A stretch of 64,000 bases of DNA. Source: Pseudonocardia sp. SCN 73-27 (lineage in GTDB: Bacteria; Actinomycetota; Actinomycetes; Mycobacteriales; Pseudonocardiaceae). Below are positions 54,784 to 62,114 of the stretch, piece after piece; the stretch's first letter is position 1, and every line of letters begins with the position of its first letter. The notes beneath the pieces were generated by a model. The model saw only the letters and a program-made list of their open reading frames with translations. It did not search any database and was not told where the DNA came from. The stretch lies in contig MEGH01000013.1 of NCBI GenBank assembly GCA_001725415.1, forward strand, positions 62,001 to 126,000, written 5' to 3'. The translations under genes and the position numbers were made by a program.

Positions 54784-56049
54784 TCAGTCGCGGGCGGCCA
54801 GGGCCTCGCGCACGGCCTTGCTCGTGGCCGCGACGGTCGCGCTCGGGGCGACGCGGTCGGCGACGGCGTCGAGCGTCTTCAGGCCGTCACCGGTGATGAG
54901 CAGGACGGTCTCGGCGTCGGGGTCGATCTGCCCGGCCTCGATCAGCTTCTTCGCGGTCGCGACCGTGACCCCACCCGCCGTCTCGGCGAACACGCCCTCG
55001 GTGCGGGCCAGCAGCTGGATGGCGTCGCGCACCTCGTCGTCGGAGACGTGGCCGATCGCGCCGCCGGTGCGGCGCACCGAGTCCAGCACGTACGGGCCGT
55101 CGGCCGGGTTGCCGATCGCCAGCGAGCGGGCGATCGTGTCCGGCTTGACCGGCCGGATGACGTCGTGGCCCTCGGCGAACGCAGTCGCGACCGGGGAGCA
55201 GCCGGTGGCCTGCGCGCCGAACATCTTGTACGGGGTGGGCTCGACGAGCCCGAGCTTGCCGAACTCCTGGAAGCCCTTGTCGATCTTCGTCAGCTGCGAG
55301 CCGGACGCGATCGGGACGACGATCTGCTCGGGCAACCGCCAGCCGAGCTGCTCGGCGACCTCGTAGCCCAGCGTCTTCGAACCCTCGGCGTAGTAGGGGC
55401 GGACGTTGACGTTGACGAACGCCCACTCCTCGTGCTCGGCCGCGAGCTCGGTGGCGAGCCGGTTGACGTCGTCGTAGTTGCCGTCGACGGCCAGCAGGGT
55501 GCCGCCGTAGACGGCGGTGGTGAGGACCTTGGCCTTCTCCAGCGACGACGGGATCAGCACGACCGAGTCCCACCCGGCGCGCGACGCGGCGGCGGCGACG
55601 GCGTTGGCGAGGTTGCCCGTCGAGGGGCAGCACAGGACGGTGAAGCCGAGCTCACGGGCGGCGGCGAGGGCGACGGCGACGACGCGGTCCTTGAAGGAGT
55701 GCGTCGGGTTGCCCGTGTCGTCCTTGACCCACAGGGAGCGCAGGCCCAGGGCGGCGGCGAGGCGGTCGGCCTTGATCAGCCGCGTCATGCCCGGCTCGGT
55801 GTTGGGGTGCGACTGCACGCTCGCGGGCACGGGCAGGAGGTCGCGGTAGCGCCAGATCGACTGCGGGCCTGCCTCGATCGACTCGCGCGTGACGGCCGGG
55901 AAGTCGTAGGCCACCTCGAGGGGGCCGAAACACTGCGGACAGGCGAACTCCGCCGCGAGGGGCGTCTCGTGGCCGCACTCGCGGCAGGAGAGGGCGCGGG
56001 CCGAGCCGAGGTCGAAGCCGGTGGCGCGCGCGGGCGCAACAGAAGTCAT
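54784..56049 (-). CDS. Threonine-synthase-like PLP enzyme under SAM-I riboswitch control
   Basis: A 421-residue fold-II PLP enzyme. A zinc-ribbon-like N-terminus has CRECGHE and CPQCFG (about 22-42). The PLP Lys is in NPTHSFKDRVVAVALAAARE (about 113-132), the phosphate loop in CCPSTGNLANAVAAAASRAG, and GSQLTKIDKGF and LLITGDGLKTLDA follow. By family it is threonine synthase (O-phosphohomoserine to threonine). The S-box in its leader, however, ties it to methionine supply, so it may instead use O-phosphohomoserine for homocysteine synthesis, as reported for a threonine-synthase homologue in Streptomyces. It stands alone, opposite to and between comEC and holA, apart from any hom-thrB genes. 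Confidence 0.85.
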   Translation of the reverse strand: MTSVAPARATGFDLGSARALSCRECGHETPLAAEFACPQCFGPLEVAYDFPAVTRESIEAGPQSIWRYRDLLPVPASVQSHPNTEPGMTRLIKADRLAAALGLRSLWVKDDTGNPTHSFKDRVVAVALAAARELGFTVLCCPSTGNLANAVAAAASRAGWDSVVLIPSSLEKAKVLTTAVYGGTLLAVDGNYDDVNRLATELAAEHEEWAFVNVNVRPYYAEGSKTLGYEVAEQLGWRLPEQIVVPIASGSQLTKIDKGFQEFGKLGLVEPTPYKMFGAQATGCSPVATAFAEGHDVIRPVKPDTIARSLAIGNPADGPYVLDSVRRTGGAIGHVSDDEVRDAIQLLARTEGVFAETAGGVTVATAKKLIEAGQIDPDAETVLLITGDGLKTLDAVADRVAPSATVAATSKAVREALAARD

Positions 56050-56060
56050 CGGAGAATCTC

Positions 56061-56178
56061 CTCATCTTCCCCGCACGAAGCGGGTCGGAATTGGCACCGT
56101 GATCGTCACACGCGATGGTCGTGTGCCGCCGGTTGCCGGGGTGTCAACGGGCCGTTCCCTCTACCCCTCTGGATGAGC
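56061..56178 (-). ncRNA. SAM-I (S-box) riboswitch in the leader of the threonine-synthase-like gene
   Basis: On the minus strand the S-box consensus blocks occur in order: CTCATCCAGAG, GTAGAGGGAACGGCCC, TTGACACCCCGGCAACC, a variable CACACG/CGTGTG hairpin, CGGTGCCAATTCCGACC, CCCGC/GCGGG hairpin, and GATGAG, which closes helix P1 with the first CTCATC. Only 11 bases separate it from the start codon. The 3' strand of P1 (GATGAG, 56066-56061) runs straight into the Shine-Dalgarno GAGGAG, so SAM binding should hide the ribosome site: translational OFF control. A GGAG/CTCC mini-stem lies just before the ATG. Confidence 0.93.
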
Positions 56179-56325
56179 CATATTCGATTGTGTGAGCCCT
56201 GGACGTCGCAGAGCACGCCTGTCCTCGTGACAACCGTACGACACCTGTCTCCCGGACGTGAAGCCGCGGTCCGGCATCTGGGAGGCGGGTCACGTCCTCG
56301 ACGGGTGCTGGGCCACGATGAAGGC

Positions 56326-57306
56326 GTGACCCCACCGGCTGCCGACGCGACGCCTCCGCATCCCGTCCACCTCGTCGTGGGCGAGGAGGAGCTGCTCGCC
56401 GAGCGGGCGGTGCAGGACATCGTGACCAGGGCGCGGGCAGCCGATCCCGAGACCGACGTGCGCCGGATGCGCATCGGTGAGATCGCTCCGGAGGACCTTG
56501 CCGAGCACCTGAGCCCGTCGCTGTTCGCCGAGGGCCGGGTCGTCGTCCTCACGTCGGCCCAGGAGGCGGCCAAGGGCATGGCCACCGCCGTGCTGCGCTA
56601 CGCCGCCGAGCCGGCCGACGGGATCGTCGTCGTCCTCGTCCACCAGGGCGGGGCCCGCGGCAAGTCGTTCGCCGACGACCTGCGCAAGGCGGGCGCGGAG
56701 GTCGTCCGCTGCGACCGGTTGACCCGCCCGGCCGAGCGTGCCGACTTCGTCCGAGCCGAGGTACGCCGGCTCGGCGGGAAGATCACCGGCGACGCGCTCG
56801 AGGTGCTGATGGAGGCCGTGGGGTCCGACCTGCGGGAACTCGCGTCGGCGGCGGGGCAGCTGGTGGCCGACACCGGCGGCGCGGTCGACGAGAAGTCGGT
56901 GCGGCGCTACCACCGGGGCAAGGCCGAGTCGTCGGGGTTCACGGTCGCCGACAAGGTCGTCGCCGGCGACCGGGCGGGTGCGCTCGAGGCGCTGCGCTGG
57001 GCGCTGGTGCTGGGGGTGGCGCCGGTGCTCGTCGCCGACGCGCTGGCCGACGCTGTGCGGACGCTCGCCAAGGTGGGCGCGGCGGGGCGGGGCGACCCCA
57101 ACCGGCTCGCGAGCTCGCTCGGCATGCCGCCGTGGAAGATCCGCAAGGCGCAGGGGCAGGTCCGTTCGTGGCGGCCCGAGGGGCTGGCGGTCGCGTTCGC
57201 GGCGGCCGCGGAGGCGAACGCCGACGTCAAGGGCGCGGCCGCCGACCCGGAGTTCGCGTTGGAACGTGCGGTCCGCCGCATCATCGACGCCCGCGAGATG
57301 CGCTGA
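56326..57306 (+). CDS. holA: DNA polymerase III delta subunit
   Basis: Clamp-loader subunit that opens the beta clamp. The 326-residue protein begins VHLVVGEEELLAERAVQDIV (about 14-33), the start of the degenerate AAA domain, and continues DPETDVRRMRIGEIAPEDLA, LSPSLFAEGRVVVLTSAQEA and SGFTVADKVVAGDRAGALEA. The C-terminal collar has RLASSLGMPPWKIRKAQGQV and AVRRIIDA. GTG 56326 lies 6 nt after CACGAT, a possible leaderless -10. Curiously it is in the same frame as comEC with no stop between. A strong terminator follows at 57378. Confidence 0.93.
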   Translation: MTPPAADATPPHPVHLVVGEEELLAERAVQDIVTRARAADPETDVRRMRIGEIAPEDLAEHLSPSLFAEGRVVVLTSAQEAAKGMATAVLRYAAEPADGIVVVLVHQGGARGKSFADDLRKAGAEVVRCDRLTRPAERADFVRAEVRRLGGKITGDALEVLMEAVGSDLRELASAAGQLVADTGGAVDEKSVRRYHRGKAESSGFTVADKVVAGDRAGALEALRWALVLGVAPVLVADALADAVRTLAKVGAAGRGDPNRLASSLGMPPWKIRKAQGQVRSWRPEGLAVAFAAAAEANADVKGAAADPEFALERAVRRIIDAREMR

Positions 57307-61578: not shown

Positions 61579-62114
61579 ATGCGGGTCGCCCCGACGGCCA
61601 CCACCCACACCGTCGCGGTGGCGACGAGCGCGACGCGTGTCGCGGTGCTGCGGCCCGCCCACAGCAGCACGACGAGGGCGCCGATCATCACGACGGACAT
61701 CGTCGCGTGCCCCGACGGCAGCGACTCGTTGGTCTCGTTCACCAGCCGCGTCGCCACCGGCGGGCGGGGCCGGTCGAAGAGCGCCTTGAGCAGCCGGAAC
61801 AACGCGCTCCCACCGATCGCGGCGGCCGCGACGAACACGGCGTCGGCGCGGCGCCCGCGCAGCCAGCTCACGACGCACATGGTCACGGCGAGCAGCGCCA
61901 TCGCGGCGGTGCTGCCGATCGTCGTGACCACCACCGCGGCGGTGGTCAGAGCGGGTTCGCGGACGGCGACGGCGTCGGTGAGCAGCGCGGCATCGGCGTC
62001 GGCGGTGCCGCTGCCGGTGGCCCCGAAGTGCAGGAGCAGCCCGGCGGCAGCGGCGAGCAGGGTCACCACGACGACGCCGAGCACCAGCGGGAGCCGGGCG
62101 GGCGAAGATCGCAT
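61437..62114 (-). CDS. PAP2-family membrane phosphatase
   Basis: A 225-residue lipid-phosphatase-like membrane protein with about six membrane segments. The three acid-phosphatase motifs are present: KALFDRPRPPVATR (about 111-124), SLPSGHATMSVVMI (about 131-144) and TRIYLGVHWFSDVVAG (about 181-196). Likely substrates are undecaprenyl pyrophosphate, phosphatidic acid or phosphatidylglycerophosphate. ATG 62114 lies 6 nt after CAGACT on the minus strand, so it is probably leaderless; the frame is open further but overlaps pgi. Its 3' end overlaps the fpg 3' end by 142 bp. Confidence 0.9.
   Translation of the reverse strand: MRSSPARLPLVLGVVVVTLLAAAAGLLLHFGATGSGTADADAALLTDAVAVREPALTTAAVVVTTIGSTAAMALLAVTMCVVSWLRGRRADAVFVAAAAIGGSALFRLLKALFDRPRPPVATRLVNETNESLPSGHATMSVVMIGALVVLLWAGRSTATRVALVATATVWVVAVGATRIYLGVHWFSDVVAGWFVGATWLAVCVVARRSWGSRPGEPAPVDSATG

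Follow-up and report, generated by a model that had tools for sequence, protein, structure and literature searches.

Background

Why should a gene that reads as a threonine synthase stand directly behind a SAM-I riboswitch? The question is raised by a stretch of 64,000 nucleotides from Pseudonocardia sp. SCN 73-27 (positions 62,001 to 126,000 of contig MEGH01000013.1), which we call the window throughout. An earlier note on this DNA, made from its letters alone, suggested that the gene encodes a MetM-type enzyme or a methionine-linked paralogue rather than a true threonine synthase.

In Streptomyces, MetO reportedly serves as the sulfur donor for MetM, and many strains are said to be without the usual methionine genes. 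The coupling of SAM-I and metM is already known for this genus. As far as the available portion of PMC12172450 goes, Streptomyces MetM is a homocysteine synthase converting O-phosphohomoserine (Hasebe 2024, cited therein), metM of S. albulus has a SAM riboswitch upstream, and in Microcystis a metO-like gene, annotated as a sulfur carrier, adjoins thrC. The available part of PMC1262725 describes methionine operons of Actinobacteria as having no conserved RNA structure upstream. A metM-type gene is not mentioned in the accessible portions of PMC12452182, PMC3766115, PMC4991794 and PMC13257386, and we found no report in open-licence full text of a MetM without MetO or of CysO feeding MetM.

We consider it quite probable, judging from sequence, that the window gene encodes a metM-type homocysteine synthase that uses O-phosphohomoserine, is repressed by SAM through its leader, has no MetO that we could find and works in parallel to metX-metY.

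The enzyme gene

The coding sequence occupies 54784..56049 on the minus strand and specifies a threonine-synthase-like PLP enzyme of 421 amino acids, recognized by its TIGR00260 and PALP matches and assigned to the MetM type from the tree and diagnostic columns described below. It scores 284 bits against the NCBIfam thrC model TIGR00260 (cut-off 167.1) and 235.2 bits against Pfam PALP, and the nearest solved structures (6cgq, 1uim, 2zsj, 2d1f) are threonine synthases. With ThrC (TIGR00260; PDB 2d1f, 1uim, 6cgq) the protein shares the nature of a PLP enzyme and a catalytic core that aligns over about 330 residues; its PLP lysine is presumably K120 in NPTHSFKDR, as assigned from the family. Unlike ThrC, it has 35 conserved columns replaced, is 33-38% identical to the hom-linked proteins and is encoded outside hom-thrC-thrB. 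Because TIGR00260 passes the MetM clade as well as the ThrC clade, this model does not discriminate between the two.

The zinc-ribbon cysteines C22, C25, C37 and C40 are unchanged in all 18 aligned relatives. A MetM of the same family in which these cysteines are replaced was seen at one further locus (L202, G378:C3:302557-303786). A plasmid collection returned 136 matching records, and the single one above 60% identity (65.1%) belongs to Nonomuraea gerenzanensis and is as large as a chromosome.

The leader and the start of translation

A complete SAM-I (S-box) aptamer lies at 56059..56179 on the minus strand. The match to RF00162 covers the model in full (1-108 of 108) at 78.1 bits and E 1.1e-16, compared with an Rfam gathering score of 44.4, which bears out the S-box blocks recognized by eye in the earlier note. 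It is the only Rfam match in the window that reaches its gathering score. On the same strand, RF00162 and the sequence together place the 5´ strand of P1 (CUCAUC) at 56172..56177 and its 3´ strand (GAUGAG) at 56061..56066. The aptamer ends at 56059, 9 nt before the gene, whose ATG is at 56049-56047.

The overlap of P1 with the ribosome binding site, also described in that note, is real: the Shine-Dalgarno sequence GAGGAG (56058..56063, minus strand, 8 nt to the ATG) shares positions with the 3´ strand of P1. Three of its six bases form standard P1 pairs and two more fall in P1 columns with non-standard pairs. The arrangement recurs within the genus. All 24 same-genus loci, the window included, have GATGAGGAG at the end of P1 and a linker of 6-9 nt between aptamer and start codon, and none of them has a site of AAGG, GAGG or AGGA type in that linker; a separate purine-rich linker site is present in 43 of 69 loci from other groups. 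Over all 93 leaders compared, the distance from aptamer end to start codon is 0-18 nt.

A pattern search of 55950-56400 found neither an intrinsic-terminator nor a sigma-70 pattern. The minimum-energy fold of the single leader sequence came out without the aptamer (z 0.12), single-sequence folding being of a kind that says little. The leader thus shares the complete aptamer with other members of RF00162 and looks translational, with no terminator found. Since P1 and the Shine-Dalgarno sequence overlap, the linker is short and holds no second site, and no terminator was detected in that search, control at the level of translation start is the likely mode.

Distribution of leader and gene

Our close sample comprised 41 genomes: this one, 24 of the genus and 16 of the order. 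The window-type gene is present in 37 of them, and 36 of these 37 have a SAM-I site immediately before it on the same contig. In the remaining one (G029), metM is on the end of one contig and a SAM-I site on the end of another. Three of the genomes without metM (G021, G031, G034) have no SAM-I site either. The fourth, an order-mate (G026), carries a SAM-I site that precedes the homologous portion of a gene for cystathionine gamma-synthase (L327 1392-2885, G026:C4, minus strand), whose product scores 564.7 bits against TIGR02080 (cut-off 504.55). This cystathionine gamma-synthase is a functional counterpart of metM.

A class-wide draw gave the gene in 245 of 393 genomes at E 1e-70 or better. 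Among the 148 genomes without it, 20 were listed, and all 20 are members of a single family (f8) in the order to which the window belongs. Every one of the 75 metM loci given to Rfam has a SAM-I leader (20/20, 20/20, 15/15 and 20/20, the first set including the window locus); those submitted were 15 of the 30 loci from the class-wide draw, all 40 further loci and 20 of the 80 Streptomyces loci. A c-di-AMP riboswitch (L187 885-1061, 71.2 bits) was also noted close to a metM locus from a different family.

The genome studied here contains a second SAM-I site of 49 bits (G000:C16:35899-35993; L003 7900-7994, minus strand), which precedes a frame of roughly 100 amino acids and a gene for a permease of LctP type (TIGR00795, 450.4 bits). 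Several such sites per genome were counted in G001 (5), G017 (5) and G023 (6), mostly of the weaker kind.

Phylogenetic position

The protein tree holds 89 rows picked from more than 180 loci and was built by a quick method, with SH-aLRT as its only support measure. Loci L001 and L004 were left out as duplicates of the window gene, as was L137 in the trees. S. albulus MetM is represented by four other Streptomyces rows; their group (f31) was identified as Streptomyces through an f31 protein that matched 80 Streptomyces loci at 90-94% identity.

In this tree, 71 window-type rows including those of Streptomyces form one clade (SH-aLRT 98), 12 hom-linked ThrC rows form a separate one (99), and a third paralogue, represented by six copies, groups on its own (100). 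The window protein is 66.9-69.4% identical to the four Streptomyces rows and 33.0-38.3% to the 12 ThrC rows. We defined diagnostic columns as those where the letter of the clade differs from that of ThrC, each being present in at least 95% of its group. At all 35 such columns the window protein, itself one of the 71 rows, has the letter of its clade. The changes from ThrC include G to H beside the PLP lysine (H117; PTG to PTH), as well as R to Y (Y220) and Q to S (S224), which turn R-x-EGQKT into Y-x-EGSKT. The phylogeny therefore places the protein outside ThrC and in the clade of Streptomyces MetM, and the leader is conserved together with the gene, in line with the enzyme type suggested earlier.

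Within the MetM clade, the window's order is split, with four changes of order label on the 89-row tree, and the window's own family (f1) is separate from the order's remaining families. This scatter may reflect transfer or poor resolution.

The locus resembles the Streptomyces MetM/MetO route in its clade, in 67-69% protein identity, in the N-terminal zinc ribbon and in the SAM-I leader directly upstream. It differs in three respects. Firstly, the Shine-Dalgarno sequence lies partly within P1, behind a 6-9 nt linker. Secondly, metX-metY forms a second route on paper. Thirdly, metO is found neither beside the gene nor elsewhere in the genome.

Sulfur carriers

A metO gene next to the enzyme gene, which we used as a test of membership in MetM, was not found here, the contig having no ThiS-family match at all. 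The whole genome contains three, on contigs C45 and C38, in accordance with the earlier failure to see a ThiS-like gene in the window. They are CysO beside cysM, ThiS beside a thiO-like frame and MoaD beside a moaA-like frame (thiO and moaA judged by eye); the genome-wide search for a ThiS-like partner thus yielded no MetO among them. A relocated MetO was considered and rejected, because, once ThiS and MoaD are set aside, the one carrier left in this genome adjoins cysM and is placed with CysO in the carrier tree. In that tree of 90 rows, CysO and MetO lie on two sides of one branch (SH-aLRT 98); it was computed from few columns, and 47 of its 86 inner branches are open. Its rows were labelled according to the locus from which they came; L130, which lies away from cysM, was labelled CysO. 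The CysO duplicates L009 and L010 were left out, and L117 and L215, which hold the same CysO, were both kept.

All 80 named Streptomyces loci have a metO-type carrier frame whose end lies 200-500 nt past the metM stop. Over the 71 MetM rows of the protein tree, a carrier adjoins metM in 35 and is absent beside it in 36, the four Streptomyces rows having been set as MetO-bearing by a rule that their loci bear out. The MetO-less rows comprise the whole of the window's order (22 rows) together with 14 rows belonging to four further families (f23, f27, f30, f34); for these 14 the statement concerns adjacency, with a genome-wide ThiS search added for G088 and G133. On the tree, MetO adjacency has changed at least four times, by gain or loss. 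No column separates MetO-bearing from MetO-less MetM proteins at the cut used, and thus nothing points to an altered active site. The histidine in the LHRF motif of CysO was tried as a mark of MetO absence and dropped, since it also occurs in a MetO-bearing genome (L214) and lineage could explain it.

CysO was found in 36 of 37 metM-bearing and in one of four metM-less genomes of the close sample (Fisher p 0.0015, uncorrected for kinship); its presence was judged from match length and score, and for 16 of the 36 metM-bearing genomes its position beside cysM was checked as well. The exception, G030, has metM together with a ThiS-like match, a MoaD-like match and a carrier that adjoins a P450-like gene, and neither CysO nor MetO was found in it. 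Conversely, G021 and G066 have CysO without metM, as the cysteine role of CysO predicts. A further type of ThiS-fold carrier, ending in PSVAGG or PSIAGG and adjoining a repeat-protein-like gene, was observed at L325 (G027:C1) and L323 (G133:C2).

Proposed pathway

We infer O-phosphohomoserine as the substrate and homocysteine as the product of the window enzyme, and likewise SAM binding by the leader and repression by SAM. The enzyme would draw O-phosphohomoserine from the threonine branch and add sulfur to it, resulting in homocysteine, from which methionine is made. As the end product, SAM would then bind the leader, upon which P1 would close and cover part of the Shine-Dalgarno sequence. 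As closure of P1 would lower translation, the enzyme would be made when SAM is low.

The sulfur may come from CysO-thiocarboxylate or, alternatively, from sulfide or another thiol. A precedent for the first exists in the CysM-CysO-Mec route, where a PLP enzyme is fed by a thiocarboxylated carrier of ThiS fold; the acceptor of CysM is a serine ester. In this genome, cysO adjoins cysM and not the window gene. Of the candidate donors, we hold thiocarboxylated CysO, shared with the CysM route, to be the likeliest, although we would not call it probable. A slightly bolder version, to which we give a little less credence, is that several lineages have lost their own carrier and that in many Actinomycetes CysO feeds both CysM for cysteine and MetM for methionine, in this strain beside MetX-MetY.

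The most serious alternative leaves the enzyme in the same clade and assumes another donor in place of MetO, either free sulfide or cysteine, the latter giving cystathionine. The repeated change of MetO adjacency on the tree fits it, as does the G030 genome. Further, genes for cystathionine beta-synthase, gamma-synthase and gamma-lyase, each above its curated cut-off, are present in this genome, and plant cystathionine gamma-synthase offers a precedent by joining O-phosphohomoserine and cysteine to cystathionine (as described in the accessible part of PMC13257386). Nevertheless, the proteins with and without MetO are inseparable by column at the cut used, and CysO is nearly always kept alongside metM in the 41 genomes; we hold this alternative to be unlikely, though worth keeping in mind.

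The homocysteine synthase that we propose would run alongside a metX-metY route. Both genes, which the earlier note had wished to see looked for elsewhere in the genome, are present together on contig C23 (metX: NF047917, 538.8 bits, cut-off 475; metY: NF005872, 830.1 bits, cut-off 703), and no SAM-I site occurs at their locus. The window enzyme is therefore not needed to complete the methionine route on paper. The genome would thus hold two routes to homocysteine, one of them with a SAM-I leader.

There are two wider aspects of this reading. Since the thrC model passes this gene and its clade is present in 245 of 393 sampled genomes of the class, many genes annotated as a "second thrC" are probably methionine genes. 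The MetO-less lineages, moreover, pose the question of which carrier, if any, feeds MetM, and whether one pool of carrier-bound sulfur serves cysteine and methionine alike.

Another explanation is a dual enzyme acting as threonine synthase and threonine deaminase, like ThrC of Microcystis, which is 51.6% identical to S. albulus MetM and has both activities in vitro (PMC12172450, as far as its available portion goes). The Microcystis example indicates that side activities are possible for MetM-type enzymes. On the other hand, according to the same portion of that paper, the Microcystis gene has no SAM riboswitch, and SAM control points to methionine; we find such a dual function of the window enzyme improbable.

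Threonine genes of this assembly

The proposal of a methionine enzyme has to account for the threonine genes as well. In the assembly (6.95 Mb, 99 contigs), the window gene is the only one above the thrC cut-off. The gene hom lies apart from it, as the earlier note had supposed, at C66:168-1631 on the edge of its contig; the 168 nucleotides past it (C66:1-168) read by eye like a transposase. No true thrB was found in this genome. The sole thrB-like match, on contig C18 with 58.4 bits, is below the cut-off and reads by eye as IspE.

In the 11 thrC loci of relatives that we examined by eye, hom always adjoins thrC, and seven of them, including that of G023, also show a thrB frame; in L039, L044, L050 and L055 the simple gene caller showed none. 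G023 is a close relative, its MetM being 98% identical to that of the window. Its hom-thrC-thrB stretch of 3,960 nt matches this genome at 95% over hom, and the rest of it gives only short matches, none longer than about 110 nt, at 73-86%.

The earlier note had counted a lack of any other thrC against its own proposal. Formally, the assembly shows this lack, but we attribute the absence of thrC-thrB to a gap in the assembly or to its local loss, because thrB is missing too, hom sits at a contig end and relatives keep hom beside a separate thrC. That the window gene is an ordinary threonine synthase, the strain's only one, and happens to be controlled by SAM would agree with the single gene above the cut-off and with the G023 stretch matching substantially at hom only. 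The tree, the 35 diagnostic columns and the gene order speak against it so strongly that we reject it as scarcely credible, and SAM control of threonine synthesis would make little sense.

Some relatives carry the third thrC-like paralogue (L109-L114), which shares 33-37% identity with the window protein. Separate copies scoring about 169 bits were seen in G004 and G011; these read through one TGA.
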